Assembly: GCF_026151205.1 (NCBI RefSeq)
Contig: NC_087082.1
Location: 6,147,908-6,207,907 of the forward strand
DNA length: 60,000 bases
Reading direction: 5' to 3'
From: Bolinopsis microptera
Lineage: Eukaryota > Ctenophora > Tentaculata > Lobata > Bolinopsidae
Below the pieces are notes generated by a model, which had not been told where the DNA came from, ran no database searches, and saw nothing but the letters and a program-made list of their open reading frames with translations. Within the stretch, counting starts at the first letter, position 1; each line of letters opens with the position of its first letter. The position numbers and the translations under genes were made by a program. Of this stretch, positions 21,397 to 54,817 are shown piece by piece.

Positions 21397-21473
21397 TTAC
21401 TGGGCCGCGCTCAGCCTGTCATTCCGGCGAATCTCTATGTTTATGAACATAATAGCCTGAGGTCCCCAGGTTA
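21397..21473 (+). mobile_element. MITE copy 1 (77 bp, 8-bp TSD)
   Basis: The element runs from TTACTGGG to CCCCAGGTTA and is flanked by perfect 8-bp duplications CCCAAAGT (21389-21396 and 21474-21481). An 8-bp duplication points to hAT-type transposition. It sits next to the GC-rich repeat inside a LINE frame. Confidence 0.93.
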
Positions 21474-27683: not shown

Positions 27684-29925
27684 ATTTGTCAAATAAGTTG
27701 TTTTACGTGTTTTGTGAGACAAGGATACGCATTTCTCAGGTAAATAGAAAGTTACCTTTAAGTACTTAGTATAAAAATTACTGAATAGAAAATACTGGTT
27801 TTTCAGTGTTACGTGAAAAACGTGCGTCAGATTCAAAATTATCTCACATATAATTTTATATAGACTTCTATAACAAAGACTAGTTTCACACTAGAAAAAC
27901 ATTAAGTACAAAATAGAATAATGAAGACATGCAATTTTCACCCTTATGGAATAACTTGAACAGCTAAACATTGTTGTTAAACAAATGGATCCTGCTCCGA
28001 AAATTTTGATTTCTCTGAAATAATTTAGCGTGAAAATGCGACAATTTAATTTGGGGTACGAAATTTGGGGATTTCTGAAAAAAATCCCCGTATTTTCGTT
28101 CCCCCATAATTCCGATCCCCAGAATTATGATCCACATAAATATGTCTTGTAAGGTATTCAGAAAGTCTACCCATACTAGAGTATAGCAAAGTGTATTTGT
28201 GTGTGCACTTCAATGTGCACAATTTTTGACCACACAGGGTCTTTCATTGCTATTCATGCTGTATGTGCACGAAAATTTATTTCAATCAAATGCATTGGGT
28301 CATTACCAAACCAAAATCATTTAGGTACCCATTTTGTATCGCTAGTCCCAGTCCTCAGGCGCAAATTTGGGATTTCTTTATCTCGGCTTCTAAAGCCAAA
28401 GGAGTTAGAGACTTGATTTTTTCCCCTACTCTTGCCGAAGATTCATTTATTGTTGATGCGCGGCGCTGCATTGGTCAAATAAATCGTCAACTTTTACCCT
28501 GCACGAATCCCACTCATTTATAAAAAACATAGTATGTAAATATGTTGCACTTTTTTCCAGTCACACTTTTCACTCAAAAGAATTAAATTTAATGGTACAA
28601 GTACATTGTAGCGAAAATTAATCGTGCGTGGTTTAACTGCAGCGAAATTATTGTTGACTTAAAATAACTGCAATAGCCTTATTTATATACAAGTTATGCA
28701 GCAATATAATGTCTCCAGTGCCTAGCGTAGCTAGGTTTTAAGGAATTCACGATAAACTGTTTTTTGGCTCATCGCAGCCTGAATTTCCGGATTATTTTTA
28801 TATTTCGAGCTAGAAGTAGAAACTGAAAGGTCGTAGATACTTTTCTGATATTTAAAAGTATTCGCAATGAGCATACTTATGTTAGACTTATGAATCATTA
28901 TATGCTCTAAAATGCTTATTTGTAGAGATTCAGATATTGGCAAAAATCAGTAATTTTGGCTGCACGAAATACAAATTTGGTAATTTGTTTCGTCTTTTTG
29001 TTACAATTTTCAAGATGCGGTTTGTGGCTATCGATAGGGCTTTATATGCCATTGTATGGTTTTGGTACAATCCTTCACCACCTGACATAGGCAATAGTGG
29101 CCACAAACCTTGAAATTTCAGGAACTGGGCAATAGCCGAGTTAAAAATTTGATAATTAATTGGACTCTTAACTCACATATATATCTTTTCAACGGTTAGT
29201 TAGACATCTTAAAACAGTATTGAACGCGGATTAAAACTTCTGATCCATTTGTAGCTCAGGTGATGTGCCCAGACCCCAGTACCTCACGCCTGTGTGACAG
29301 TGGGCCTTATCGATCATGAGCCGGAAATCTCAATAACTTTGGGCCTAAGAGACAAGGGCATTCGTACTCTTGCCTTAAATTGTCTCTTCGTTAGTATCAT
29401 CGATCAGGTTTCTAACTTTTATATCATCTGCCTGTCCAGTGTCCATCCGTCTATTTGAGATTCATTATAATTTTAAGTTCAGTCATTTCGCTTCTTTTTT
29501 TTTCATTCAAACCATGAACTTTAGTTGTCGAACTGTAGTACGTAAATCGTCCGATAGTTAGTGAGAAGAGGAGCAATTGGTTTAAAATAGCTCAAAGCTA
29601 TCAAAATAAGCCCGAAGTGATTCGACTTCGAATGAAATCTACTGGAAATCCATTCATCACGGCCGTGAATCAAGGTAGTATTTCTATCGTGGGAATAGCT
29701 ACCAGAGGTATGGAACTATGATCATTATGAAGTTATGAGAAACCCCGGCACCGGGCATATCCGGCGGTGATTAAATTTAATTTACGAGCTCTTAGACAGC
29801 TATAGACGGCTCACTCAAATTTTAACTGTGGCACGTCCAAATTCCACGGTAAATTGGGGTTCTTATGATGTAATAACCAGATTCATTATAAATAACATTT
29901 ATTTACGTCTTCAGTTTACAAATCA
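27684..29925. other. Intergenic, no gene supported
   Basis: Holds hairpin repeat copy 2 and, at about 28250-28300, the terminal 35 bases of the LINE 3' UTR found at 20455 and 59215. An open frame to 28523 (GVRDLIFSPTLAEDSFIVDA) and a minus-strand one at 28731-28943 resemble nothing I know. Confidence 0.5.
28053..28105. repeat. Hairpin repeat, copy 2
   Basis: Same structure as 27556-27606 with a few changes (CCCCGTATTTTCGTTCCCCC on the right arm). Confidence 0.85.
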
Positions 29926-29943
29926 GTGAAACACAAACATACT

Positions 29944-32900
29944 ATGTATGTCTCATTTAAGTCTCCTTGCACCCCACACATCAACTACAATTATCATAAT
30001 CATATGTTTCTCTTCTATTCTCTTATCATGACTTACTTTCTCCCAATTCTTCTCTCCACAACTAGGTCCATGAACACTGTACTCCCCCTAGATTCTAATA
30101 TTCATTCCTCTCTACTCCTTGACAGCCCACGTTATCTTATACCATTTCTTGCTTGCTCCCACATCAAACTTTTCTTTGTAATTATCTCCTCATGGTTTAT
30201 AAGAAATGTTCTTCTCCCTGGTAAGATGAATAGAGCCAAGTATTCCAGCCGCCTCAGGCGTCTAGTCTCTTTATTCATTCTTTGGGTTTTCTCTCTTAAC
30301 TTTCTTTTGATAACTCTTGTTAATCCTTCTATGCTTAATCCAGGTCCCAACTCCCTATCTGTACTCTACCAAAATGTCCAAGGTCTTATTCCTTTCAGTA
30401 ACCTAAGCTCCTCCCATCCCCTTCTTGATGGTAGTAAGATTTCCGAACTTCAATCCTTTGCTAACATAGAGCAGCCTGACATAATTGCCCTAAATGAGAC
30501 TTGGCTCAAAAAATCTATTTCTAGCAACGAAATCTTTCCTTCTTCTCAATATGAAATCTTCCGCAATGACCGCACGAGAAAGACTCATCCTCAAGATCCT
30601 AATAACCCTAAAAAGTTTAGGGAAAATGGAGGTGGTGTTCTTTTGGCTGTTCGGTCTGATCTCGATGCCACTACAACCCGACTACCAGTTAGCCTAGGTG
30701 CAGAAATGCTTGCCGTTAAAATTGCTTTTCCTAACAAAGAGAGTATTGTAATCTGTACTTGTTATAGAGTAGGAACTCTTGGGTTACCTAATCATGATGT
30801 CATAGTTAGTTATATTCGCAAGCTAGTTTCCAAAAAGAATCCCCCTAAAATCTATGTTATTGGTGATTTTAATCTCCCCCATACAGACTGGCTATCCTCA
30901 TCCAGTACCGTACCTATTGAGCAATCCTTCATAGATTCTTTCAGTGATCTCTCTCTCTCCCAGTTGATCACATCACCCACCCATAAAAGTGGTAATACAT
31001 TATATAATATATTAGACATTCTTCTCAGTAATTATGATAACACAATCGATAACTTGAATGTCTGTGATCCTCATTCCGTGTGCAAATCTGATCATTTTCC
31101 TGTCACTTTTTCAATTAAAAGCTCCTTTTCCCGCAAGAAAACTCCTAAACGTAAAATCTATAATTATAAGAAAGCAAACTGGGACATGATTAATCGTGAA
31201 TTATGCTCGATTAATTGGCAAGTCCTAGAATGCCTAGATCCTGATTCGTCTTGGAAGTTAGTTAAAGACTGCATTATGAATTTAGTTGATATACATATTC
31301 CTAAAGTAACTATTAAATCAGAGTTTCAACCCCCGTGGTTCGATAGTGAACTTTTTTCTTCATGCCGTAAAAAAGATAGACTCAGAGCCAAATTTAAAAT
31401 TTCTGGTTCTATTTCTGATGAGTTAAAGTTTGTTACTAGCCGTAAAGATTTTAAGAGGCTTTCATCAGCCAAAATAAGAGACAATCTTTTCAATAGTGAT
31501 GATCTAGCGCTTATAACTAAGAAGTTTTGGTCACATGTTAAGTATAAATCTAACTCCTGCCGTATTCCTAATTGTGTTAGTTATTCTGGACAGCTTCGGT
31601 TCAAACCCAAAGCTCAAGCTGAACTTTTCAATTCTTTCTTTTATAACCAGTTTTCGGATCCTTCACTTTATGACACTGACATCTCCTATGTCAATGATGT
31701 TGATTTTGATAGTGACTTCGATCATCGGGATGTTCGTAAGCTTCTTTCAAATATTAATTCAAATAAAGCCCAGGGACCAGATGGCATACACGGTAAAATT
31801 CTCAAAAATTGTTCCGTAGGTTTAGCTTACCCTCTAACATGCATTTTTCGTGGATCTTACATTCCACAAGAATGGAAACTTGCAAATGTTGTCCCAATAT
31901 TTAAGAAAGGTAAGAAAAGTGAGGTTGAAAACTATAGACCAATATCCCTTACTTGTTTAGTCATGAAAGTTTTTGAGCGCATTGTTAAACGTAAACTGCT
32001 TTCTTTGACAAGTACCCTTCTTGATCCCAGGCAGCATGGTTTTCTAGAGCACAAGTCATGCACAACCAATATGGTTGACTTTTGTGATAGCCTGGCATTG
32101 TCTCTTAACGAAAACATTATCAATCATGTTGTGTATTTTGATTTTGCTAAGGCATTTGATTCTGTAAATCATGATATCCTTCTTCATAAGCTAAAGACCT
32201 TATATAACATTGATGGTACACTTCTCAAATTTCTTACCAATTACCTTCAAGGCCGTTACCAAAGAGTGGTTATTGGTAATGAGATGTCATCTACCCTCTC
32301 AGTTAATTCTGGTGTCCCCCAGGGCTCTATTCTTGGTCCCTTACTTTTTGTATTGTTTATCAATGATATTCCTCTTGGCCTTTCGGATAATACTGATATT
32401 GTTTTGTATGCCGATGATACAAAAATCTGGCGTAAAATACATTCATCTTCTGATAATACTAATTTACAAATGGATATAGACTATCTCTCTGACTGGGCAC
32501 TAAGAAACAAAATGCGATCCCATCCAGCAAAATGTAAAGTGCTTATTGTTTCAGGAAAACCATCTTTATCTCCTCCATTCGCATATAATCTTGATGGCTC
32601 TCCTCTTGTGTATGTAGAGTTAGAAAAAGATCTTGGAGTCGATGTTACTCCTAAGCTAAGTTGGAATAGTCAGTGCGACAGAATTTATACTAAGGCCTGC
32701 CAACAACTTGGTATGGTCAGAAGAGATGGCCATATTGTCATTGATCAGAAACGTCGCCGGGCTCTTTACCTCTCCCTGGTTCGTAGCCAATTCGAAAATT
32801 GTTCCATAATCTGGCGCCCTTGTAATAAATCACTCAGTGATAAATTAGAAAGTCTCCAAAAGAGAGCTATTAAATGGATTCTGTCTGAAGAGGGCCGCAG

Positions 32901-32949
32901 TTATCCACCTGAGCAATATCGACATTCTCCCTTTGTCTCAAAAGTTTGA
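29944..32949 (+). CDS. LINE endonuclease-reverse transcriptase, 5' main part
   Basis: About 1000 aa from the first ATG at 29944. The first 140 residues are hydrophobic and end in MLNPGPNSLSVLYQNVQGL, recalling the NPGP leader of CR1-like elements. An apurinic-type endonuclease follows (NETWL, GGGVLLAVRSDL, VIGDFNLPHTDW, KSDHFPV). The reverse transcriptase comes next: NKAQGPDGI, YRPISLTCLVMKVFERIV, DFAKAFDSVNHDILLHKL, GVPQGSILGPLLFVLFINDI and the catalytic YADD at 32407-32418. The frame ends at 32949 by a frameshift and the C-terminal part continues in the next frame. All catalytic motifs look intact. Confidence 0.95.
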   Translation: MYVSFKSPCTPHINYNYHNHMFLFYSLIMTYFLPILLSTTRSMNTVLPLDSNIHSSLLLDSPRYLIPFLACSHIKLFFVIISSWFIRNVLLPGKMNRAKYSSRLRRLVSLFILWVFSLNFLLITLVNPSMLNPGPNSLSVLYQNVQGLIPFSNLSSSHPLLDGSKISELQSFANIEQPDIIALNETWLKKSISSNEIFPSSQYEIFRNDRTRKTHPQDPNNPKKFRENGGGVLLAVRSDLDATTTRLPVSLGAEMLAVKIAFPNKESIVICTCYRVGTLGLPNHDVIVSYIRKLVSKKNPPKIYVIGDFNLPHTDWLSSSSTVPIEQSFIDSFSDLSLSQLITSPTHKSGNTLYNILDILLSNYDNTIDNLNVCDPHSVCKSDHFPVTFSIKSSFSRKKTPKRKIYNYKKANWDMINRELCSINWQVLECLDPDSSWKLVKDCIMNLVDIHIPKVTIKSEFQPPWFDSELFSSCRKKDRLRAKFKISGSISDELKFVTSRKDFKRLSSAKIRDNLFNSDDLALITKKFWSHVKYKSNSCRIPNCVSYSGQLRFKPKAQAELFNSFFYNQFSDPSLYDTDISYVNDVDFDSDFDHRDVRKLLSNINSNKAQGPDGIHGKILKNCSVGLAYPLTCIFRGSYIPQEWKLANVVPIFKKGKKSEVENYRPISLTCLVMKVFERIVKRKLLSLTSTLLDPRQHGFLEHKSCTTNMVDFCDSLALSLNENIINHVVYFDFAKAFDSVNHDILLHKLKTLYNIDGTLLKFLTNYLQGRYQRVVIGNEMSSTLSVNSGVPQGSILGPLLFVLFINDIPLGLSDNTDIVLYADDTKIWRKIHSSSDNTNLQMDIDYLSDWALRNKMRSHPAKCKVLIVSGKPSLSPPFAYNLDGSPLVYVELEKDLGVDVTPKLSWNSQCDRIYTKACQQLGMVRRDGHIVIDQKRRRALYLSLVRSQFENCSIIWRPCNKSLSDKLESLQKRAIKWILSEEGRSYPPEQYRHSPFVSKV

Positions 32950-39112: not shown

Positions 39113-42100
39113 TTAATGTAAAGCACTCTGGTCACGATAAGCAGAGGAAAATTCTGAATCAGTTTCCAAACTTCTCATCTCCCAGTTGTCAGCAGTGTAG
39201 CTCTCAGAAGATTCTCCACTGTTAACGCTCTCAAATAGGAGCTCATTAGAGTTAAGCTCCATGGCTAGTGCGAATAATGGAATCAAAGTAGGAGTGAAGC
39301 CATCCTCAGAGTAGAGGTTGAACTGAAGCTCAGTCTGCATGTTGGCACTTGATCTGAGTGTGCAACTAGGCTTCACGACTTCATTTGGTTCATCTGGTTC
39401 TGGAGTTTGATATTCGATGTACTCAACATTTCCCCCGTCATTCCGAAGCTCCAAATTCCTCATTTTGTTCCGCCATTTTTCACCACTGCTTGAAGATCCG
39501 ATACTACTCACCGTTACCCTTTCCAGTTTCATGTATGTGTCGAAATTTCTGAGCGTGTTACATCTTATCGAATCAGAACCTGTGTCTGAAATTGAGCTTG
39601 ATGAATCTGAGGAGAATCTAATCGTTTGTTCGTCTGACCCTTGCCTGGTGAGAGTGGAGATTTGTTTTGTAGTACCCTCAATAAACAAACTATCATAAAG
39701 TGTCTCTTGAGATACACTCTTGACATTCTCAAATGTTTCCTCGGATATTGGCGCAAAGTCTGGAATCGTTTCGACTGACTTATAATAGATTGGTTCGCAT
39801 TCTGACTTTTCATTTACCTCAGCCGCATCTACCCTCTCAATTAAGTTGCAGATTTCTTTAGATTCTATCACATGAATACCATTGATTCCACTCTTTTCGG
39901 AGGAGTCACATTCGAGTACAAGTGACGGATTCTTTTGAAGGTAAGATTTTTCAAGCTTGTTTTCCCGGTAGACGTTCACTATAACCAGTGAACCACTTTC
40001 AGAGCAAGAAGAATAAGCAGTTTCCGCATCTATTTCAGCACGATTCTTTTTCTGTTTCCCTTTTGACGATCCCTTTTTCCTCTCAATTCTGATATCCAGC
40101 TGCTTGTTATTCTTATCTAGGAAAATATACTGGCTAACTCCCGAGTCCTGGCTGCAGTTAATGAACCTCAAATTATCACGAGTTGTGTTTGCATCCTCCA
40201 TATTATCACGAGTTGTGTCTGCATCCTCCATATTATACGTGATGTTCGATTCTTGCTCTTGATCAGATTGAATGATCTGAATCCTATTCGGAAAAATAGT
40301 TTCAACTCTTGCAGAGTCTCCTTGCCTGTTGTCGTCGGGATGAGTCGTTAGACTGGTAGAAAGTACGTCTTTTTCACTTATAATAACAGTCCTGCTTTGT
40401 GCTTTCTCTTTAGCTTCAACAATAGTAAAGGGTATATCCAAGCTTTTTCTTTTCGTGACGGGTAACAAACAAGATAAGGTAGCACCAATCAGCATTAGAA
40501 CCGAGATAGTGATCCTTATCTCATCACCAGACTCCCCGCCCTGAGGGTTGAAATATCTTGTGTTGATGATGGAAGCAGCACCGAGGAGACTGAACCCCAC
40601 CCCAAACACTCTGCCTCTCTGGGGCATGGGAACCACCTCGTGTGTGACCAGCAGGAGGAGGATGCATGACACTTCTGTGAGACCTTGTACTGCCAGATTC
40701 AGAACAACTGAGCTGTTAACTATAGTGAGCAGACTACAGATAGCATTGAGCAACACCACCACACTCAGCAGTGTTTTAGCTGGAAAGTACAGTAAAACAC
40801 CCATACTGACTGCCTGGAGACACCAACATACAGCAGTTCTAATGACGTAGTACACAGACAGACTCATACCACCACCTAGTTTACTGGATAGAGGAAGGAG
40901 TGCAGAGCCCCACAAGTAGAGAATTATCAGAACTCTGAGTCCTGTGCTCCGGTGAGTGAAGAGTGCCGTGAAGTGATCCTCCTCACGGTGGTGGGTTTCT
41001 GTTGCAGTTGTTATCTTCAGTATTCTGGAGAAGGAGCTCCACTTAGAGGAGATTTTAGTGAGCGCTCTGTCCGCTTCCCTGTCAAGGTGGTGGGAAAGGA
41101 GGAATTGTACTGACTCCGGGAGGAAGAGAGAACAGCAGCCAGATACCCAACAGAGGATCAGTATCACTATAGTGATATCCTTCCAGTTATATAACTCCGT
41201 AACAAGCACGGCAAACAGTAACCGTCCCACAGCCCCAACTGACGAAAGCAGGAGTAGTGTTAGATGCCGGTATTTCTTTGGAATATTCTCAGACAACCAG
41301 ATGAAACTAGATATAAGGTACAATGTGTATACTACCCCCTGGAGCACTTGTAGCACAACCAGGACGGAGTATGAACCAAAAAAAACCTGCACCAGGACTA
41401 GAAGCGAGCCGAACAGAGCCGAACTCATGAGAGGTGCTCTGCGGCCACATTTATCTACCACTAATCCAGATATAATCCCACTCACCAGTACTCCGATCCA
41501 GATGTACTCTGTGTGCGTACTACCCTCCCTGTCACAGTACAGACTCCATTTTATGGGAAAGTAGGTGCTGACTTTGTCCGACCAAACAAAGTCCACTCCT
41601 CTTATGAAATAGTTGCTTAAATCAGCTGTAGACGGGACATTAGCTTCGTTATTATTTGTAGTCAAGTCTGAAGAATACATTTGCACAGGAATATGATCGA
41701 CAGGATTTAGAGAACAGAAAACCTCTCTAGAGTAGAGGGATCCACCCTTTGTAGCATCGCTACATTTACCAGTGGACGTGTCCACACACCGCCACATAGT
41801 GTAATCAATCTGTTCTGCAAATACCACCCAGTCGAATAACATGGGTATGATAAGGAACACAAGGCTGGCGACTGTGTATTTCACACAGAATGAGAGTTTC
41901 GGCTCGATGAACTGATTTAGAAGTTCTTCCACCGATAGAAATCGTTCCTTGTGTTCGATGTTGATGGTCTGATTGGACATGTTATTTAGTTCGAGCCTCG
42001 CTTTATCATTCGTTGTGTTACTATTCTCAATTCTTTTCCAGAATCCTTTACGAACAGATTTCGTAATCTGATTTGTGACATCTGTTGTTTTCTCCTTGAT

Positions 42101-42133
42101 CACTGCAAATACTTTCGTTTTTCCCGCATCCAT
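39113..42133 (-). CDS. SLC22-type organic ion transporter with a long C-terminal tail
   Basis: A 1006-aa intronless protein from ATG at 42133. Residues about 75-562 form a major facilitator domain of the SLC22 (organic cation/anion/carnitine) family. It has a first TM near 85-105, a large extracellular loop with cysteines between TM1 and TM2 (WRCVDTSTGKCSD, WSLYCDREG), the loop 2-3 signature GLVVDKCGRRAP at about 223-234, and PES (LPESVQFLLS) at about 339, the usual family marker after TM6. Twelve hydrophobic segments can be counted. The family is normally about 550 aa; here about 440 extra residues follow, rich in Ser, Glu, Asp and Thr, with a 10-residue tandem repeat (NMEDADTTRD / NMEDANTTRD) and a basic KGKQKKNR patch. 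The tail looks cytoplasmic and disordered and could hold phosphorylation or scaffold sites. The substrate cannot be inferred. Confidence 0.94.
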   Translation of the reverse strand: MDAGKTKVFAVIKEKTTDVTNQITKSVRKGFWKRIENSNTTNDKARLELNNMSNQTINIEHKERFLSVEELLNQFIEPKLSFCVKYTVASLVFLIIPMLFDWVVFAEQIDYTMWRCVDTSTGKCSDATKGGSLYSREVFCSLNPVDHIPVQMYSSDLTTNNNEANVPSTADLSNYFIRGVDFVWSDKVSTYFPIKWSLYCDREGSTHTEYIWIGVLVSGIISGLVVDKCGRRAPLMSSALFGSLLVLVQVFFGSYSVLVVLQVLQGVVYTLYLISSFIWLSENIPKKYRHLTLLLLSSVGAVGRLLFAVLVTELYNWKDITIVILILCWVSGCCSLFLPESVQFLLSHHLDREADRALTKISSKWSSFSRILKITTATETHHREEDHFTALFTHRSTGLRVLIILYLWGSALLPLSSKLGGGMSLSVYYVIRTAVCWCLQAVSMGVLLYFPAKTLLSVVVLLNAICSLLTIVNSSVVLNLAVQGLTEVSCILLLLVTHEVVPMPQRGRVFGVGFSLLGAASIINTRYFNPQGGESGDEIRITISVLMLIGATLSCLLPVTKRKSLDIPFTIVEAKEKAQSRTVIISEKDVLSTSLTTHPDDNRQGDSARVETIFPNRIQIIQSDQEQESNITYNMEDADTTRDNMEDANTTRDNLRFINCSQDSGVSQYIFLDKNNKQLDIRIERKKGSSKGKQKKNRAEIDAETAYSSCSESGSLVIVNVYRENKLEKSYLQKNPSLVLECDSSEKSGINGIHVIESKEICNLIERVDAAEVNEKSECEPIYYKSVETIPDFAPISEETFENVKSVSQETLYDSLFIEGTTKQISTLTRQGSDEQTIRFSSDSSSSISDTGSDSIRCNTLRNFDTYMKLERVTVSSIGSSSSGEKWRNKMRNLELRNDGGNVEYIEYQTPEPDEPNEVVKPSCTLRSSANMQTELQFNLYSEDGFTPTLIPLFALAMELNSNELLFESVNSGESSESYTADNWEMRSLETDSEFSSAYRDQSALH

Positions 42134-42426
42134 ATCCAGATTAGTAAAAATTTGGGAATAAGGCAAACGTCATCGGAATTAATAAACTAAAGCGTTAATC
42201 ATGAACAAACATTTTCAAAAACATTTTCAAAGTACTAAAGATAACTGCTTTATAGAGAACAGTGTAGAGAGGGTAACATTGCGACTTCGTGAAGATTGAG
42301 GTTTGCAGTGTATGTATTGAAATGTGTTATTACGAGTAACCAGTGCGGTTATCAAAAAATTACATTCAAACATCTTTACTTGGTATCAGCTGATATCCTT
42401 GATTACCAATAATAGATCCTGAATAA
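42134..42426. other. SLC22 upstream region
   Basis: AT-rich sequence between the transporter start and a LINE ORF1 remnant; the promoter is presumably here, but no motif is firm. CAAACATTTTCAAAAACATT is partly repeated at 42206-42230. Confidence 0.4.
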
Positions 42427-44555: not shown

Positions 44556-45589
44556 TGAGAGGCTGCAGCTGATATTTTGATTTCCGGAGTGTACTCACAA
44601 ACAAATGAAACAGTCATTAGATAAACAAATTTCAAAAGTAGATTAATGTTTCATAAATCAGTTTTAAAAATCTTAAGAACAATTGGATTTACAATTAATA
44701 AAATATAATAACTAGGAAACAATGCCGTAATACACAATTCAATTAAAATTAATTGTCATATTGTCATCCTCATGATATTACATGATATCCAAGTTCTGTC
44801 CCACTTCCAAATTATATGAAATTTTCTGAACACACATTTGACAGATTGGATGAAATTTCCAGGACCGCAATTTTACAGTTTTGACTGATCTTTTTACCCG
44901 CAACCAATTAGTAAGTCAACTATAGATGCTAAATGTCACGATTGAGGTGCTGCCGCTGGAAGTTTGATTTCGGCAGGGTTGGGAAAAACGCAAATGGAAT
45001 CTTTAAAAAAAGCAAAAAAACGCAACTTTTTTCATTTTCTTTAAAAAAACGTCCCAAAAACGTTCAAAAAACGTTTTCGTACCCGAATCAAACCTACTCA
45101 CGTGAGAATTTAGATAATTGTATGACCAGCCATGCATATCAGTATCACGTCCACACAACACTTTTTTTTTTGTTCAGGGAGCAGGCTTGCCACATAGGTC
45201 CAGGATTACCGAACGTTTAGGCAGGGTGCTAGGTTATGGAACACACTCAACTAGGTAGTAGGTAGTCTGAGAGTCCGAAAATCTCCAAAAGGAGATGTCA
45301 TCAGAGTGTGATCCACTGCCTGACTAACCTGTGGGTAGAGTTCATTAGACTCTATAATGATGACAGGTAGTATCTTCTGTATGTTGCTGAGATCCAGTGT
45401 CCATGGTACCTATTTTTGAATTAGTTGGAAGAAGGATAATCGATAATATTGAAACCACTTTTGTTTCTGCAAATTAAACTGATAAATGAAATAAAAATCT
45501 AAAAACCAACAATAAATATAAGGATAAATACCTTGCAGGTAATAACATAAATAACATTATTAGTTTTACAATTAAATATAAAATTTGTT

Positions 45590-45788
45590 TTTACACCTTG
45601 TAGAAGTTCATAACATGAAACAACGTGACAATTTCAACCAGGCTTATAAAGTGTCAATTCTCAGTAATAGTAGTCCAAGAACTCTAGAAGTAGATGAACA
45701 CCGTTATATTCAGAAACTAAGAACTATACGTCCATTGGGGCTCAATGCCGTGGACCCGTTTGGGATTCCATTATTGGATTTATCTTAA
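45590..45788 (+). other. Unidentified coding-like segment inside the hAT-type element
   Basis: Translates to VSILSNSSPRTLEVDEHRY then LRTIRPLG. A related segment lies on the minus strand at 58503-58640 (INNTSPKTLEV, RPLG). It is a shared repeat of unknown origin. Confidence 0.45.
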
Positions 45789-46193
45789 AGGTTTTCCATT
45801 GCATTGGGGCACAAAAGTTATGTTTTTAAAAATATTCATAGGTATCGTTTTTAGTTGTGTCATTTCATTTCCAATGTTACACTTTGTAGGAACTGATATT
45901 AACCGAGTTTCTGATTCAGGATGTTACTGAAGATAGTAATGAAAATGTTTTAACACCTCAGTACTGTGTTTTACTACAGCTCAACCTGCTCAGTCTGACT
46001 ATTTGGGAATTTAAACTCTTGATAAAATTTGTATGTCCAAAGATAAAATCATTATTAAAAGTACTGCTCCTAAATGTATTTACAGGATTAAAACTGTAGC
46101 AAGTGAGACAACCTCTACCATTGCAACATCTAAAAGTGCTAGAAAAGACATTACTAGGGGTTACCCTAACACACCCGATAAAGTTGGTGAAAG

Positions 46194-46295
46194 TTTCAAA
46201 TGCTACAACTACACCTGGGATGCTACCGACTGGGTTAAGCAAACAGAGGGCACTACTTGTCATCGACTGGAAGATACTGCTATTAAATGCAACAT
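46194..46295 (+). CDS. Ly6/uPAR-like exon (N-terminal half)
   Basis: Encodes FKCYNYTWDATDWVKQTEG then TTCHRLEDTAIKCN, with the K-C-Y start and three cysteines of a three-finger Ly6/uPAR fold. The frame is open to about 46033, so the exon start is uncertain. Its donor (CAAC-AT before GTTAGA) leaves phase 2, which fits exactly the G-CC start of every downstream terminal exon. A signal-peptide-like MFLKIFIGIVFSCVISF at 45820 might be an upstream exon, but I found no phase-matched junction. Confidence 0.65.
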
Positions 46296-46827
46296 GTTAG
46301 ATGTGACTTATTGATCATAGATTCTTCCTTGCCATAATAGTGCCTGCTGAAATTCAATGGAAATCCATCAGATACCTTCTCTGATACTTTACGGATCTAA
46401 TATTTTAAAAATTTAAATACACTTTTTAGTGTTTTTCTCGTGAATAATTGGTAAAATTGCAGTTGAATTTTCATGAATTTGTCCAGAAATCTGTTTGAAC
46501 AAGCCTGAACTTAACTTAAATTAATTACCAAAAATGCAGTTTCTCAGTTTAACAAAAGACTGAACTACTCCGACCCTTTTACACAGTTGGCTGAGGCTCA
46601 AATTAGATAGAGTCATAATTTAAGCTCTCCTGCAAATCGACGTGATTCAGTAAATTTCAGTTTGTAACATAAATCACGGTATGACATCTTTTCCATGATA
46701 TGACGGCATTTCCGAAGGTTCATTGAAGTTCTGCTGATGTATCAAATATGGCACGGAACTCCAATCGCAGTATTATAGGAAGAACGAATTATTGGATATA
46801 GGAAAATGTAAATGTCTCATTCCCCAG

Positions 46828-47101
46828 GCCGGGTACAGCAGCTGATGCAGACTACTCATTCCTTAACAATGGATGTGGACCTTGTGCAACTGATGCTGCT
46901 AACAACACTTGTGTTGAGTGTGACACTGACAGCTGTAACGAGGAGAACAGTGCTACTATCTTCACTGCTACATTTCTACCACTCATCACAGTCATCTACT
47001 CGCTTGTGATGTATATTTGTGACATTACCATCATAACATCGATTTTAAATGAAACATTTTGTGGAATCAAATGCCACTTTTTATCTGCAAAAACTACATA
47101 A
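46828..47101 (+). CDS. Ly6-like terminal exon, diverged copy 0
   Basis: After TCCCCAG it reads PGTAADADYSFLNNGCGPC, NNTCVECDTDSCNEE, then a hydrophobic end FLPLITVIYSLVM typical of a GPI-attachment signal. Joined to the 46194 exon, the domain has eight cysteines and ends C-N as in Ly6 proteins. Where the other copies stop (ATG TAA) this one has TAT and reads 30 further codons to TAA at 47101, which would spoil the GPI signal. Confidence 0.65.
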
Positions 47102-47479
47102 GTACTGGACTAAGATTAGGATAGGCCTTTTCTTCTGATCTAATTTAAAATATTTTACTACAGTAAATACATCTAATTTTCTTTTGAGGTCAAGTTTGAA
47201 GGTTTTACAGTGAATATTTCTATAAAATTGATCTTTTCCGCCTTGGGTTTCAGAAGTTGTTCGCCGAGAATTTGAGAACTATTTTGGTATTACACATCCA
47301 GCTGCCCTTAAGAATGATGCCATTTCAATTATCATGCACACAATATTAGAACAGTAACTTGTTTTTATTTATTGAGGATGATCAGGTGGAACCGTTTTTT
47401 CGGTTACATTTGAAGTTGAACTGAAATGTATGACGCTCAATTTAATTTATAATAAAAGGGTAAAGTTTTTTATACACCT

Positions 47480-47578
47480 TGACAGAAATAGTCATACTAT
47501 AAGATCAAAACCAATGAGTTAAAACTGAGAAAATAAGGAGGGTTTCTTATTGGGTAGTCTTTTTTGGGACACCCTGTA
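47480..47578 (-). mobile_element. Mariner-type terminus within each array unit
   Basis: Read on the minus strand it begins TA-CAGGGTGTCCC followed by AAGACTACCCA, very like the terminus at 59749 and like Tc1/mariner ends. It recurs with each array unit (about 48385 and 49190). No transposase is seen. Confidence 0.65.
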
Positions 47579-47637
47579 TTTGCCGAAAAATGCGCTTTTT
47601 TTGCTCTAAATAACTTACGATCTTCGTATTTATCCAG

Positions 47638-47815
47638 GCCAGGTACAGCAGCTGATGCCGACTACTCGTTCCCTGACAATGGATGTGGACCCTGTGCTAC
47701 TAATGCTACTACTGACACTTGTGTTGAGTGTGACACTGACGAGTGTAACAGTGCTACTACCAATACTGCAGTCCTTCTGCCACTCATCGCTGTCATCTAC
47801 TCGCTCGTGATGTAA
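47638..47815 (+). CDS. Ly6-like terminal exon, copy A
   Basis: Starts after TATCCAG with PGTAADADYSFPDNGCGPC and ends with VLLPLIAVIYSLVM and stop. Cysteine spacing C-x2-C...C-x2-C-x4-C-N is that of a Ly6/uPAR C-terminus followed by a GPI signal. Confidence 0.7.
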
Positions 47816-48443
47816 AATACTCGTGATACTGTCATCTAAACTTCGATTTTAAATGAAACATTTTGTGGAAACGGGTGCCACTTTTGACCTCCAAAAACTA
47901 CATAAGCACTGAACTAAAATTAGGATAAGACTTTTCTTCTGAGTTTACTATAGTAAATAGTATCATCAAATTTCCTTTGAGGACAAGTTTGAACGTTTTA
48001 AGGTGAATATTCCTATACAATTGATCTTTTGCGCCTTGAAGGTTCAGAAGTTGTTTACTGAGAAGTTTATAACCATTTTGGTATCGAAATTATTATTACA
48101 CATCCAGCTGCTCTTAAGAATGATGCCATTTCAATTATCATGCACACAATATTAGAACAGTAACTTGTTTTTATTCATTGAGGATGATCAGGTGGAACCG
48201 TTTTTTCGGTTACATTTGAAGTTGAACTGAAATGTATGACGCTCAATTTAATTTATAATAAAAGGGTAAAGTTTTTTATACACCTTGACAGAAATAGTCA
48301 TACTATAAGATCAAAACCAATTAGTTAAAACTGAGAAAATAAGGAGGGTTTCTTATTGGGTAGTCTTTTTAGGGACACCCTGTATTTGCCGAAAAATGCG
48401 CTTTTTTTGCTCTAAATAACTTACGATCTTCGTATTTATCCAG

Positions 48444-48621
48444 GCCAGGTACAGCAGCTGATGCCGACTACTCGTTCCCTGACAATGGATGTGGACCCTG
48501 TGCTACTAATGCTACTACTGACACTTGTGTTGAGTGTGACACTGACGAGTGTAACAGTGCTACTACCAATACTGCAGTCCTTCTGCCACTCATCGCTGTC
48601 ATCTACTCGCTCGTGATGTAA
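48444..48621 (+). CDS. Ly6-like terminal exon, copy B
   Basis: Appears identical in coding sequence to copy A, exactly 806 bp further on, with the same acceptor and stop. Confidence 0.65.
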
Positions 48622-49249
48622 AATACTCGTGATACTGTCATCTAAACTTCGATTTTAAATGAAACATTTTGTGGAAACGGGTGCCACTTTTGACCTCCAA
48701 AAACTACATAAGCACTGAACTAAAATTAGGATAAGACTTTTCTTCTGAGTTTACTATAGTAAATAGTATCATCAAATTTCCTTTGAGGACAAGTTTGAAC
48801 GTTTTAAGGTGAATATTCCTATACAATTGATCTTTTGCGCCTTGAAGGTTCAGAAGTTGTTTACTGAGAAGTTTATAACCATTTTGGTATCGAAATTATT
48901 ATTACACATCCAGCTGCTCTTAAGAATGATGCCATTTCAATTATCATGCACACAATATTAGAACAGTAACTTGTTTTTATTTATTGAGGATGATCAGGTG
49001 GAACCGTTTTTTCGGTTACATTTGAAGTTGAACTGAAATGTATGACGCTCAATTTAATTTATAATAAAAGGGTAAAGTTTTTTATACACCTTGACAGAAA
49101 TAGTCATACTATAAGATCAAAACCAATTAGTTAAAACTGAGAAAATAAGGAGGGTTTCTTATTGGGTAGTCTTTTTAGGGACACCCTGTATTTGCCGAAA
49201 AATGCGCTTTTTTTGCTCTAAATAACTTACGATCTTCGTATTTATCCAG

Positions 49250-49427
49250 GCCAGGTACAGCAGCTGATGCCGACTACTCGTTCCCTGACAATGGATGTGG
49301 ACCCTGTGCTACTAATGCTACTACTGACACTTGTGTTGAGTGTGACACTGACGAGTGTAACAGTGCTACTACCAATACTGCAGTCCTTCTGCCACTCATC
49401 GCTGTCATCTACTCGCTCGTGATGTAA
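49250..49427 (+). CDS. Ly6-like terminal exon, copy C
   Basis: Again 806 bp further on and the same in coding sequence. The surrounding unit ends early at about 49903, where the sequence changes to unrelated DNA. Confidence 0.65.
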
Positions 49428-49903
49428 AATACTCGTGATACTGTCATCTAAACTTCGATTTTAAATGAAACATTTTGTGGAAACGGGTGCCACTTTTGAC
49501 CTCCAAAAACTACATAAGCACTGAACTAAAATTAGGATAAGACTTTTCTTCTGAGTTTACTATAGTAAATAGTATCATCAAATTTCCTTTGAGGACAAGT
49601 TTGAACGTTTTAAGGTGAATATTCCTATACAATTGATCTTTTGCGCCTTGAAGGTTCAGAAGTTGTTTACTGAGAAGTTTATAACCATTTTGGTATCGAA
49701 ATTATTATTACACATCCAGCTGCTCTTAAGAATGATGCCATTTCAATTATCATGCACACAATATTAGAACAGTAACTTGTTTTTATTTATTGAGGATGAT
49801 CAGGTGGAACCGTTTTTTCGGTTACATTTGAAGTTGAGCTGAAATGTATGACGCTCAATTTAATTTATAATAAAAGGGTAAAGTTTTTTATACACCTTGA
49901 CAG

Positions 49904-51180
49904 AAAGAACGCGCGCATTAGACGCACGTACAACTTTGCGGATGTCAGATGTTATGCAGTATTATTATTATAATAGCCAGTATTACAACTATTATGTTAT
50001 TAAGAAAATGATCTTATCATTTGAAGAGACGATGTTCAAGATTATTCTTGATAAATTGTAGATAACCATGCCAAGACTCGACTGATCGTAAAGCTGTGGA
50101 CAGTGGAATGTGGCTTTTGTACTTGTAGTTATAATGCCAATGTTAGCTACATCAGCTCGGAATAAAAATAATGTAAAACAATTACCTGTAGTTCCAGCAC
50201 AGACTCTAGCACATTTGGGATTTCCTTTAGGCTTCGTTTCCTCACTGTTTAGTATGATAACCGGACTGTGGAAATCAAGAGTTATCGTTATTTGTAGTCG
50301 TAAAGTTACACTTACAGCTGCCTGGATAATAGCGGGGAGGTGGTGCATCATGCATGGCTGTTTTATCCTGGTTAATTGGCAGATGGTTGGTTGATCGCTA
50401 ACACATAACACATGCTTCTCAAGTTATTTTACATATAACACAAATAGCGAGGATATAAACTTGTTTTGTTGCATCTTTCGAGGGGAAGTGTGTGTAGTTC
50501 CGTAAAGCCATTATATCATACCTTCTAAAAGAGAAGCATTAATAACCAACTTAAGTAAATGATTATTAACACGTTTTAAAATCGTGATAACGTTGATACA
50601 TTGCCGTAGGCGTATGAACTTGAAATGTTGGTACTTAGAAGGGTTATATTAGAGTTAGGGTTGGGATCAGATTAGAGGGTTAGGGTTTCGAAAAGTCGTT
50701 CAGAACCAGTAAAGAACAGCTAGAGAACAAGTTGAAAAAGTCACGGGACAGTCGAGTGTAGAGTGATTAATCATCATCCAGAATTGTCAGTTGTCACTAT
50801 ACTATTGAGTGAGCACTATACTATTGAGTGAGCACTTGATTGAGTAATATTTATAATTGTACTGTGTAATATATAATATGTAAAACTAAAATAAAGTGAA
50901 ACAGTTACAAATAAAAATTGAGTTTCTGCCTCGGTTCTCGGTATAGTAGTTTGGCGCGCACGTGTCATGGTCAATGGTAACCTGATATAATGATATCCCG
51001 CCAAATATGAAACAGCTAGACTAAACGTATACACTGTATAGTACTGTGTATTTACTATTTATAGAATTAGTCTTCTAGAATTGAGAATGTTCACTTGGAT
51101 GTTATGACAAATATTTACTAATCCATGCAGTTCAATTAATCTTTGACGATGATTGTAAATGTAGTTGAAATTTAAAATGT
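49904..51180. other. Right part of the hAT-type element, no gene supported
   Basis: Open frames at 50110-50394 (+) and 50411-49992 (minus) overlap; a minus-strand segment reading KPKGNPKCARVCAGTT lies between splice-like sites, but its upstream phase does not work. A 20-bp duplication (ACTATACTATTGAGTGAGCA) lies at 50797-50834. Confidence 0.4.
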
Positions 51181-51315
51181 TTAACTACCGCTGGTTGCGT
51201 GAAATTTGTTGATTTTTGGCATTTTAAAAAAACCGCAAATTCGTCTTAAAAAACGCAAAAAACGCCGCAGTTCTTTAAAAAAAACGCAAAAAACGTTTAA
51301 TTTTTCCCAACCCTG

Positions 51316-52220
51316 GATTTCGGTCGGAGGAAGCACACAGCAGAAAGCTAACAAAACGAAAAGTTGCATTTTCAAAATCCTGTAAAATTCTCTAATATGA
51401 AATTTTCTGAGCACATATTAAATAGCTATTGTGTATTGGATGAAATTTTTGTCCAGAAATTAACGGATAATGCTGATCGTAAAATATTTATTTCAAATAT
51501 ATCCAAAAATGTTATTAGGACCGTTGACGAGTCTAACTCGGCGCGCGTCCTGGTAGGTTATATGTTATAAACCTACAATTGAGCGGACGCGCGCTACTGC
51601 AAGCGCGAGGGCTCTCGCATCATGGTCAGAGAAACATGAACAAATTTGAAATCACTTGAATTGGAGGACTTCGACGCACCACGCAAACTAGCATTCTTGC
51701 TTCGCATTTTTGCTTCCCATCGTCCGCGTCGATCGTTGCTCCATGCTTTGTTGATTCACGATGTCAATCCTTTCCCAGAAAACCTTACCGGCTGCTGGGC
51801 TTGCTAGAGGTTATAGATTCTCAACAGCACGTTTGGCGTCGCGCGTCACGTCAAGTTTACCTTTCGCACGCTGCATTGAGCCTAGTAGTCATGACAACGA
51901 CATTTCTTTGCAAAGTTTAAAAGCTGTGATCTTTTATTTAGCCCAAAATCAAACTTTTCGGTTTAATTCAGAATCTACGTTGTCTCAAATTTGGCTCCTG
52001 GGGAGCTAACTTTAAATTTACGAGACGGAAATTTTGTTGAAAACCGGAAGGTTCTATCTATTTTACTTTTGGAGATATACCCCAGCCGGTAGGGTTTCCT
52101 GGGTTGCAGCTCGGTGAGGCACAGTGGTGCATCTCGCCGATCTACCGAGAAGCATTATTTGATGCGCGCGCGACCCAGTAGTGCATCGCGCTACAACATG
52201 CTTTGCTTCGCAGAGCAACG
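51316..52220. other. Repeat-rich flank, no gene supported
   Basis: Contains a hairpin with GCGCGCGTCC / GGACGCGCGC arms at 51541-51592 and a copy of the GC-rich repeat of 21216 at 51660-51750. A plus-strand frame (MKFSEHILNSYCVLDEIF at 51397) partly matches 44818-44863. Confidence 0.5.
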
Positions 52221-52600: not shown

Positions 52601-54169
52601 TCAAAACTGATTATATAAATGGTTCTTTAACATTCGCTTGAAGCAGTTGGTATCAGTAATACATCTCAACATCATTGGAAGAGAGTTCCATGCAATCGGT
52701 GCATGGCTTGAGAAACGTCTGTCATCAACTTTTGACCTTTTATTCTTTGGTACCTTTAACATGAGATGGTCACCAGATCTTTTCGACCTGGTCATGGTGT
52801 TTGAAAGTTCTGTATCCACTACAGCCACATCTAGTAATGCTTTTAGGTAATCAGGTGCAGTACCGTGAACTGATTTGTGGGTTAAAAGACAAACCTTAAA
52901 GAAGATTCGTTGGTCTATAGGGAGTATGTGGGCCTTCTTATAGAAGGGAACCAAGTCCGTGGTTCTGTCTTCTATGTTATAGATGAAACGAACTGCCCCA
53001 TTAAGGGTGGATCTAAGTTTGTTTAATCTGGTCTTGGGTAGATTCATGTACAGAGAATTACAGTAATCTAATTTAGATATAACCAGTTGTTTCACCAACA
53101 TCAATTTAATGCCTTCATCCAGGTAACGACCAATAGTTCTTAAGTTCATCATTGTCCAGCTACATTTCCTTTTCACATTATTTATTTGTCTTTCCATGTT
53201 TAAAGTTTCATCAAATTTGACACCTAGACTCTTCCAGCTGTCTCCTTTGCACTCCGTAGGTAGAATTTCAGTGCTTCCGAATTGTAGTCTGACACTGAGT
53301 TCACACTTTTTTAGAACATGGCTCTTTCCTAACACCAGTAGTTCTGTCTTTGTTTCATTCAGTTTCATGTAATTGTTCACCATCCATGTTTTGATCTCTG
53401 CAAGACATTTGTTTGTCCTGTCTTGGACATCAGTGAACTGTACCACACGGTTTGGTTGAAACGAGATGTACAGGTGGGAATCATCTGCATATAGCTGTAT
53501 ATCAAGACCATATTTGGCAGCAATTTCTTGGAGAGCTTTGATATAGAGGATGAAAAGAATAGGCCCCAAGAGTGATCCCTGGGGAACTCCAAACAAAAGC
53601 TCCAAGAAAGTAGAAAGAGTATCGTCAATCTTCACACAGAAGTGTCTCTTCTCAAGGTAGGACTTTATCCATTGCAGTGCACTTCCAGTAATTCCATAGT
53701 CTTTCATAAGCTTTTCCAATAAGACTGTGTGGTCAATGGTATCAAACGCTGCACTTAAGTCGAGAAGTACAACAATAACAACATTCCCAGCTTCAATTTC
53801 TTTGTTAAGATCATCACACATTCTTACAAGTAATGTTTCACAGCTGTGGTTAGGGCGGTATCCAGATTGGACGTCCGAGTAGAGGCTATGTGTCGTGAGA
53901 TGGACGTTGAGCTGGTTAAGTACAGTTCTCTCTAGGATCTTGGAGAAGGCAGAGAGGTTAGAGACTGGTCGATAGTTACTGAGAATATCAACATCAGCAT
54001 TTTCCTTCTTCAAAGTCGGCTTGATGACTGCTTTCTTCATATCTGAGGGAAAGATTCCAGTCTTTAAGGATGAGTTCAAGACGTGGAGTAAAATAGGTGT
54101 CAGTTCAGCGACACAGTTTTTTAAGAGAAATGCTGGGATCGGATCCAAGCAGCAGAACTTGTTAGACAT
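52601..54169 (-). CDS. LINE reverse transcriptase
   Basis: At least 522 aa with a full RT core: LDPIPAFLLKNC, YRPVSNLSAFSKILERTVLN, SGYRPNHSCETLLVRM, LDLSAAFDTIDHTVLLEKL, GVPQGSLLGPILFILYIKAL, the catalytic YADD (53480-53491) and SWKSLGVKFDE. The C-terminal domain ends RRFSSHAPIAWNSLP. The frame stays open upstream of the ATG at 54169 into the Asp-Lys tract, so that ATG is not the real start. It belongs to a family distinct from the LINE at 29.9 kb. Confidence 0.94.
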   Translation of the reverse strand: MSNKFCCLDPIPAFLLKNCVAELTPILLHVLNSSLKTGIFPSDMKKAVIKPTLKKENADVDILSNYRPVSNLSAFSKILERTVLNQLNVHLTTHSLYSDVQSGYRPNHSCETLLVRMCDDLNKEIEAGNVVIVVLLDLSAAFDTIDHTVLLEKLMKDYGITGSALQWIKSYLEKRHFCVKIDDTLSTFLELLFGVPQGSLLGPILFILYIKALQEIAAKYGLDIQLYADDSHLYISFQPNRVVQFTDVQDRTNKCLAEIKTWMVNNYMKLNETKTELLVLGKSHVLKKCELSVRLQFGSTEILPTECKGDSWKSLGVKFDETLNMERQINNVKRKCSWTMMNLRTIGRYLDEGIKLMLVKQLVISKLDYCNSLYMNLPKTRLNKLRSTLNGAVRFIYNIEDRTTDLVPFYKKAHILPIDQRIFFKVCLLTHKSVHGTAPDYLKALLDVAVVDTELSNTMTRSKRSGDHLMLKVPKNKRSKVDDRRFSSHAPIAWNSLPMMLRCITDTNCFKRMLKNHLYNQF

Positions 54170-54250
54170 CTTCGATACCAGGTCTTTGAGTTCATCAGCT
54201 GTTATCTCAGAGAATTTATCAAAGACGAAGTCTTTATCAAGAACAGGATC

Positions 54251-54620
54251 TTTGTCTTTGTCTTTGTCTTTGTCTTTGTCTTTGTCGTTGTCGTTGTCTT
54301 TGTCTTTGTCTTTGTCTTGGTTTTTGTCTTTGTCTTTGTCTTTGTTTATATCTTTGTCTTTGTCTTTGTCTTTGTTTATATCTTTGTCTTTGTCTTTTTC
54401 TTTGTCTTTGTCTTTGTCTTTGTCTTTGTCTTTGTCTTTGTCTTTGTCTTTGTCTTTGTCTTTGTCTTTGTCTTTGTCTTTGTCTTTGTCTTTGTCTTTG
54501 TCTTTGTCTTTGTCTTTGTCTTTGACTTTTTCTTTGTCTTTGTCTTTGTCTTTGTCTTTGTCTTTGTCTTTGTCTTTGTCTTTGTCTTTGTCCTTGTCTT
54601 TGTCTTTGTCTTTGTCTTTA
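54251..54620 (-). repeat. Hexanucleotide (GACAAA)n array inside a LINE frame
   Basis: About 61 units of GACAAA (minus strand) with rare substitutions. In the polymerase frame it encodes (Asp-Lys)n, continuous on one side with DPVLDKDFVFDKFSEITADE and on the other with EIRRAIEKEGKDSVKDKD. It looks like an in-frame expansion of a pre-existing DKD stretch. Confidence 0.92.
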
Positions 54621-54817
54621 ACAGAATCTTTTCCTTCCTTCTCAATGGCTCGTCTGATTTCAAATTTTTGGCAAATTTTTGCGTGAAAGGCACAATAGCG
54701 TAAAATATTTTTGTTAATGGTTGAGGTACCTCAAAAGTGATTTCAACGCGCCGTTCAATATTGTGTATTGGTCGTAAGTAAAACGTCCAATTAGTGAGTA
54801 ATCAAGCAGGTTAAAAA

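Follow-up and report, generated by a model that had tools for sequence, protein, structure and literature searches.

How did part of a Ly6/uPAR-like gene come to lie between the two ends of a DNA transposon? The locus that raises this question lies in a 60,000-nucleotide stretch of the Bolinopsis microptera genome (C11:6147908-6207907, here called the window; positions without a contig name refer to it), in which an element of 6342 bp, not counting its target-site duplications (TSDs), has hAT-type ends around Ly6-like exons. The initial annotation had proposed one hAT-type insertion that captured, and moves, a Ly6-like gene. Our alignments show that the element is inserted with an 8-bp duplication and acquired Ly6-like DNA, although this DNA is a gene fragment and not a gene. 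We think it probable that this non-autonomous hAT element took up the fragment near a Ly6-like locus on contig C2 and later moved to C11. The genome searched comprises 264.65 Mb in 232 contigs, 13 of which, of 15-26 Mb each, hold 258.07 Mb (97.5% of the assembly).

The ends of the element match each other exactly. A terminal inverted repeat (TIR), CAGGGTTGGGAAAAA, stands at 44974-44988 and, inverted, at 51301-51315 (minus strand); it is perfect and exactly 15 bp long, because base 16 differs. Directly outside it lie two identical 8-bp TSD copies, GATTTCGG, at 44966-44973 and 51316-51323. A TIR/TSD pair this good within 10 kb is expected by chance about 3.5e-5 times per window of the same composition, and a scan for exact 8-bp repeats around 12-bp inverted termini found three cases in the window, namely this element and two of another family. 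The left arm (44974-45161, plus strand), which consists of the TIR and a subterminal region rich in AAAACG, has five copies of that hexamer, and the last 300 bp of the element have four, compared with 0.06 per 300 bp elsewhere in the window. The inverted termini, the 8-bp duplication and the subterminal repeats at both ends are thus as first described. Both the 8-bp TSD and the short TIRs are hAT features, and the start of CAGGGTTGGGAAAAA resembles CAGxG, which we take to be the usual hAT start.

Unoccupied targets are found elsewhere in the genome. When the two flanks are joined with a single TSD copy, they align across the insertion point to satellite monomers of ~346-366 bp at two loci, L084 and L085, with four spanning alignments at each (77-85% identity). 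The empty monomers read GAAGTTTGATTCGGGTCGGAGG or near variants, with one 8-bp copy at the position of GATTTCGG and no bases missing at that point; the window flank has six additional bases ~10 bases upstream of it. These sites are paralogous and not allelic. Because unoccupied satellite targets carry the 8-bp sequence once, the element is a real insertion. The element sits within one monomer of this satellite, and the arrays in L084 and L085 each abut a right terminus of this hAT family, in both cases preceded by TTTTAAT.

These empty sites also bear on the idea that a resident Ly6 paralog was flanked by hAT ends from two unrelated insertions. Sequences with hAT domains are common in the genome, but the TIRs and TSDs here are perfect and paired, the Ly6 homology stops at the joint with hAT sequence, and the related copy L007 (described below) lacks the insert. 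We regard such an origin as extremely improbable; the empty-site alignments, which extend over both flanks, lead us to reject two unrelated ends around a resident gene.

The element has relatives in the same genome. Its exact 15-mer TIR occurs 16 times, the window's two included, compared with once for a reversed control, so the termini are not confined to this locus. With at most one mismatch the counts are 79 and 30, and 26 of the 79 are the variant CAGGGTTGTGAAAAA, perhaps a sister family. Copies with two recognisable, opposed ends and flanking 8-mers were read on three contigs: L007 on C2 (C2:11789299-11790532; 1234 bp; flanks ATTTATTG/ATTTATTC, 7/8 matching), whose right TIR is eroded, and two more, on C7 (C7:14851852-14852726; 875 bp; ACCAAACG/ACCAAAAG, 7/8) and on C5 (C5:12063154-12064050; 897 bp; GGTTACTT/GTTTATTT, 6/8).

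One place with the CAGGGTTGTGAAAAA variant may connect these termini to a hAT protein. This end, at C8:3682972-3682986 (L097), has a PF05699 hAT dimerisation domain 1.05 kb upstream (C8:3681712), confirmed at E 7.6e-10 within an open frame of 261 amino acids; an adjoining 103-amino-acid frame has a DUF659 match below the cut-off. The TIR at C8 differs by one base from that of the window, and its terminal 137 bp align to the left end of the window element at 68% identity (E 3.6e-9). When the TIR is left out, the alignment scores 49 and beats 200 of 200 shuffles, whose maximum is 36. By our own estimate, the odds of an end lying this close to such a domain by chance somewhere in the genome are below 0.1, and the two would be parts of one element; a second end of it was not found. 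Inside the window element, Pfam recognises no transposase family in six frames of 95-143 amino acids, in agreement with the initial annotation, and its one match below the cut-off (TMEM9, E 0.036) falls in the hydrophobic frame of exon B1. The empty sites, the 16 exact TIRs and the homologous end near a hAT domain together support the non-autonomous hAT insertion that was first proposed, and show that it has genuine relatives.

The cargo begins with exon A (46167-46295, plus strand), which is Ly6-like, 5'-truncated and encodes a first half-domain. Terminal exon B1 (46828-47101), with the second half-domain and a hydrophobic tail, is followed by B2 (47638-47815), B3 (48444-48621) and B4 (49250-49427), all on the plus strand. 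The four tandem terminal exons reported earlier are all present, in 806-bp units of which the second and third differ at 1 of 806 positions, and B2, B3 and B4 have their stop codons; B1, however, has lost its own, and its frame reads on to 47101. Unit 4 matches to ~49906 and then passes into the captured 3' flank of the Ly6-like locus (49428-50401, plus strand; outside the array from 49907), which has 91.5% substitution identity to C2.

Exons A and B together encode a domain, seen in the translations and their alignment, with eight cysteines that ends in CxxDxCN and is followed by a hydrophobic C-terminal tail. These features and the division into half-domain exons are what we take to be the Ly6/uPAR motif, with CxxC here in place of the usual CC pair. 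Pfam returned no family for two spliced products and two paralog open reading frames, and PDB comparisons gave no Ly6-type match. A PDB profile search, whose query alignment included one frame-broken piece from C6, gave two matches that we take as chance (E 0.011, a cytochrome trimer, and E 0.83), and the one Rfam match is below the gathering score. The Ly6/uPAR identity given in the initial annotation is thus kept by motif only, as Ly6-like, since neither Pfam nor PDB has a Ly6 match.

Comparison with the C2 paralog shows that the cargo is not a complete gene. At the start of exon A, C2 reads ATGGATGCAACACACCT, with upstream coding sequence CSTCDTDGCNTPLEVGENF that is missing from the window; the preceding domain of the paralog is missing as well, and upstream in the element there is only hAT or retroelement sequence. 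Lacking the beginning of exon A and the exons before it, the fragment probably makes no receptor in its present form. The Ly6/uPAR-like exon first described is Ly6-like from 46167, but the reading frame upstream to 46166 belongs to a multicopy retroelement, and we rejected 46015-46166 as Ly6 coding sequence. A putative donor site for exon A is suggested by comparison with C2 and C6.

Outside the window, C2 is the best relative of exon A, exon B and the 3' flank alike. All candidates were scored in these searches (39/39 for exon A, 46/46 for exon B, 4/4 places for the flank). For exon B, C2 (81% amino acid identity) is followed by C1 (67%); for exon A, C2 (67%, E 2.2e-12) is followed by a place on C5 (53%, E 3.3e-7); and the flank is found in the window, on C2 (87%), on C5 (81%) and on C6 (79%). 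The search for a parent Ly6 gene thus leads to paralogous loci on C2, C5 and C6, such as a Pack-TYPE element should have, although C2 is the nearest relative and not the exact donor. Values of dN/dS (0.093/0.199 for B1 and C2, 0.098/0.276 for B2 and C2) mix time before and after capture, and we draw nothing from them; the three rows with C6, which goes out of frame, were excluded and the B1-B2 row was not used. The Ly6-like family extends over the genome with 40 exon B matches, the window's four included; C13:4536238-4620240 holds a tandem cluster with seven of these matches, and C3:12646024 and C3:10199686 have open frames with two domains, 313 and 305 amino acids long.

The point of acquisition emerges from L007. 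This copy aligns to window positions 44974-45138 and then, after 16 bases, to 50402-50641, 50822-51021 and 51011-51256; the 5240 bases of 45162-50401 are present in the window and missing from L007 at one point. The rest of the hAT element (50402-51315, plus strand) is common to both, apart from a nested high-copy repeat at ~50649-50785 that L007 lacks. Only L007 matched 50402-50641 among the best 40 of 1711 candidates scored. A 10-bp direct repeat surrounds the insert, with the left copy CACACAACAC at 45152-45161 (plus strand) and the right copy CACATAACAC, matching at 9/10 positions, at 50402-50411; L007 has a single CAGATAACAC.

The Ly6-like paralogs mark the same point from the other side. 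Similarity to the window extends to 50406 in the C2 locus and to 50404 in those on C5 and C6. Past this breakpoint, C2 stays collinear with C5 for ~480 bases and with C6 for ~530 bases, up to the fetched ends (83.6% and 85.3% identity over the whole alignments); C5 and C6 are 98% identical there and count as non-independent. At ~50404 the window switches to hAT sequence, with CACAT (5 bp) shared with C2. These alignments, in which three paralogous loci run on collinearly while the window turns to transposon, show that the element acquired the Ly6-like fragment. The 3' flanks on C5 and C6 (L095, L096) have 98% identity over 753 bp despite lying on separate large contigs.

On the left, the hAT arm ends in CACACAACAC, and an antisense retroelement with poly-T follows. 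Its layers are the poly(A)-bearing 3' end of a multicopy retroelement (45162-45535, minus strand); part of its body (45536-45588, minus strand), contiguous with 46033-46166 in L092-L094; a nested, 5'-truncated insertion resembling a long interspersed nuclear element (45589-46022, plus strand; up to 100% identity to other copies) with its target duplication TAAAATTTGT at 45579-45588 and 46023-46032; and the remaining body (46033-46166, minus strand), which abuts the Ly6-like fragment. The 3' part has 97% identity to its best relatives and the body 98-99%; the two are likely one element with an internal deletion. We presume from a GIY-YIG-like frame in L094 that it is Penelope-like. That 45162-45592 might be hAT or Ly6 remains was rejected, as it is retroelement sequence.

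This arrangement could also come from retrotransposition, in which all of 45162-50401 derives from a single RNA that was reverse-transcribed into the hAT element. This RNA would have run antisense to Ly6, with the retroelement poly(A) at 45162 as its end, and the 10-bp repeat would be the target duplication. The end of the hAT left arm and the start of the poly-T coincide exactly, CACACAACAC and CACATAACAC flank the block with one copy in L007, and such an event would account both for the retroelement at the joint and for the kept intron. However, the retroelement/Ly6 joint at 46166/46167 was seen in the window only among the best 40 of 72 candidates scored. At the right joint the 5-bp match with C2 fits as well, as does, at the left, CAACAC, which is common to hAT and to the C2 Ly6 sequence; moreover, the retroelement resembles its own family more closely than the Ly6 part resembles C2. 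We therefore treat entry as a single RNA as possible but rather doubtful.

We favour instead an acquisition near the C2 locus followed by transposition to C11. A short hAT element would have been situated near the Ly6-like gene on C2, and a piece of that locus would have been copied into it at a single point, probably through repair synthesis at the short matches CACAT on the right and CAACAC on the left. A hAT transposase acting in trans would later have moved the element into the satellite monomer on C11. At undated stages, retroelements would have inserted inside it and the terminal exon would have multiplied to four copies. On C2, 20,759 bp separate the Ly6-like locus from L007, which has the same orientation (chance probability ~1.6e-4 for a single named pair), and from this closeness of both nearest relatives we infer capture there and a later move as a unit. 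The two components have similar substitution identities to these relatives: the hAT parts give 0.885-0.943 in comparison with L007, while Ly6 unit 1 gives 0.919 and the 3' flank 0.915 in comparison with C2.

The same proximity separates this order of events from capture in place, in which a plain hAT copy reached C11 first, the Ly6-like fragment was copied into it there and the composite stayed immobile. Just one composite copy was found, and the age of the insert cannot be read from the perfect TSD and TIR, but capture in place leaves the 20.8-kb closeness on C2 to chance; we entertain it only tentatively. It concerns route and order, as does retrotransposition, and both partly overlap with acquisition near C2.

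A further possibility is that two adjacent hAT copies transposed jointly, together with a Ly6 gene between them. The pertinent part of PMC8903248 describes this Pack-TYPE model for Pack-CACTA elements and proposes it for other superfamilies, hAT included, through local insertions in the same orientation; 12 of the 15 local hAT pairs that it gives for maize Pack-hATs share orientation. L007 does lie near the C2 Ly6-like gene, but the left and right hAT parts of the window element join at the same position of a single element and neither arm is duplicated, and two independent breakpoints at the same place are unlikely. We consider such a fusion improbable.

Several observations weigh against capture near C2 and a later move. 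The proximity argument is post hoc, made after the data were seen. Unit 4 is less similar to C2 (0.879), and identity per 100-bp block spans 0.83-0.97. Exon A is only 67% like C2 at the amino acid level, so that C2 is no clean donor, and no paralog matches the intron that separates exon A from exon B, the scores lying within the shuffle range. L007 is a relative and not an exact empty version, since it carries ~330 bases of its own before its last aligned part that the window lacks; in two other copies, L003 and L070, the left arm runs nearly straight into 51041, and 50402-51040 is absent entirely. The left capture joint is masked by the retroelement. No second composite copy was found in the complete exon A and B searches or in the whole-element search (best 40 of 2104 candidates scored, mostly a nested repeat), and no autonomous hAT or transposase with the exact TIRs was seen by eye among the 150 of 365 hAT-domain candidates scored. 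With a single composite, movement as a unit is a reconstruction of ours; for the moving gene of the initial annotation, it is only proximity that suggests a source area on C2.

Other repeats and open frames lie elsewhere in the window. A second TIR/TSD family, TTTATGAA beside CATAATAGCCTGRGGTCCCC, is present at 21440, 23610 and 26472. A single open frame of 1018 amino acids at 39113-42169 (minus strand) matches sugar/major facilitator superfamily transporters. Reverse transcriptase frames lie at 52601-54730 (minus strand), where the frame continues from a long KD-repeat stretch, and at 29896-32949 (plus strand); at 12515-13840 both strands are open through a long tandem repeat.

Among known systems, the closest in kind are the Pack-hATs of plants. 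Like those presented in PMC8903248, the window element is non-autonomous, has hAT-type TIRs and TSD, holds gene-derived internal DNA with no transposase found inside, has copies without that DNA, and has a relative in the vicinity of the likely parent gene, the pattern expected of local hopping. It differs in its animal host, in being a single copy and not a cluster, and in its ~4.2 kb of gene-locus DNA, array included, compared with 58-280 bp in the plant examples given there; its acquisition resembles insertion into one element, not the fusion of two. Turmoil-1 of C. elegans is likewise an animal DNA transposon holding host protein-coding fragments, but the portion of PMC2572040 devoted to it assigns it to the Harbinger superfamily, places the fragments inside its inverted terminal repeats and tabulates several copies. 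For maize Ac/Ds, also hAT, the autonomous partner Ac is known (in the relevant part of PMC3260210), whereas the window element has only a relative with divergent ends.

With Ly6-like exons inside, no recognised transposase family and a relative, L007, without the exons, the element is by its sequence features a Pack-TYPE, or transduplication, member with a defective cargo. A much bolder idea is that an animal hAT acts as a moving exon cassette, taking up a Ly6-like half-domain, multiplying its terminal exon and supplying host genes with alternative membrane-anchored ends by landing downstream of promoters and signal-peptide exons; we think this quite unlikely. Plants offer well-described cases of cut-and-paste transposons that captured gene fragments. 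In animals such cases are rarely documented, and according to the 2008 account of Turmoil-1 none had been known there until then (PMC2572040, in the section concerned). Our literature search on ctenophore transposable elements, hAT and Ly6/uPAR returned no report of such a capture. L007, the paralogous empty targets and a likely source area 20.8 kb from L007 make the steps of capture testable in an early-branching animal, and suggest that further captures are worth seeking among the hAT elements of the same genome.

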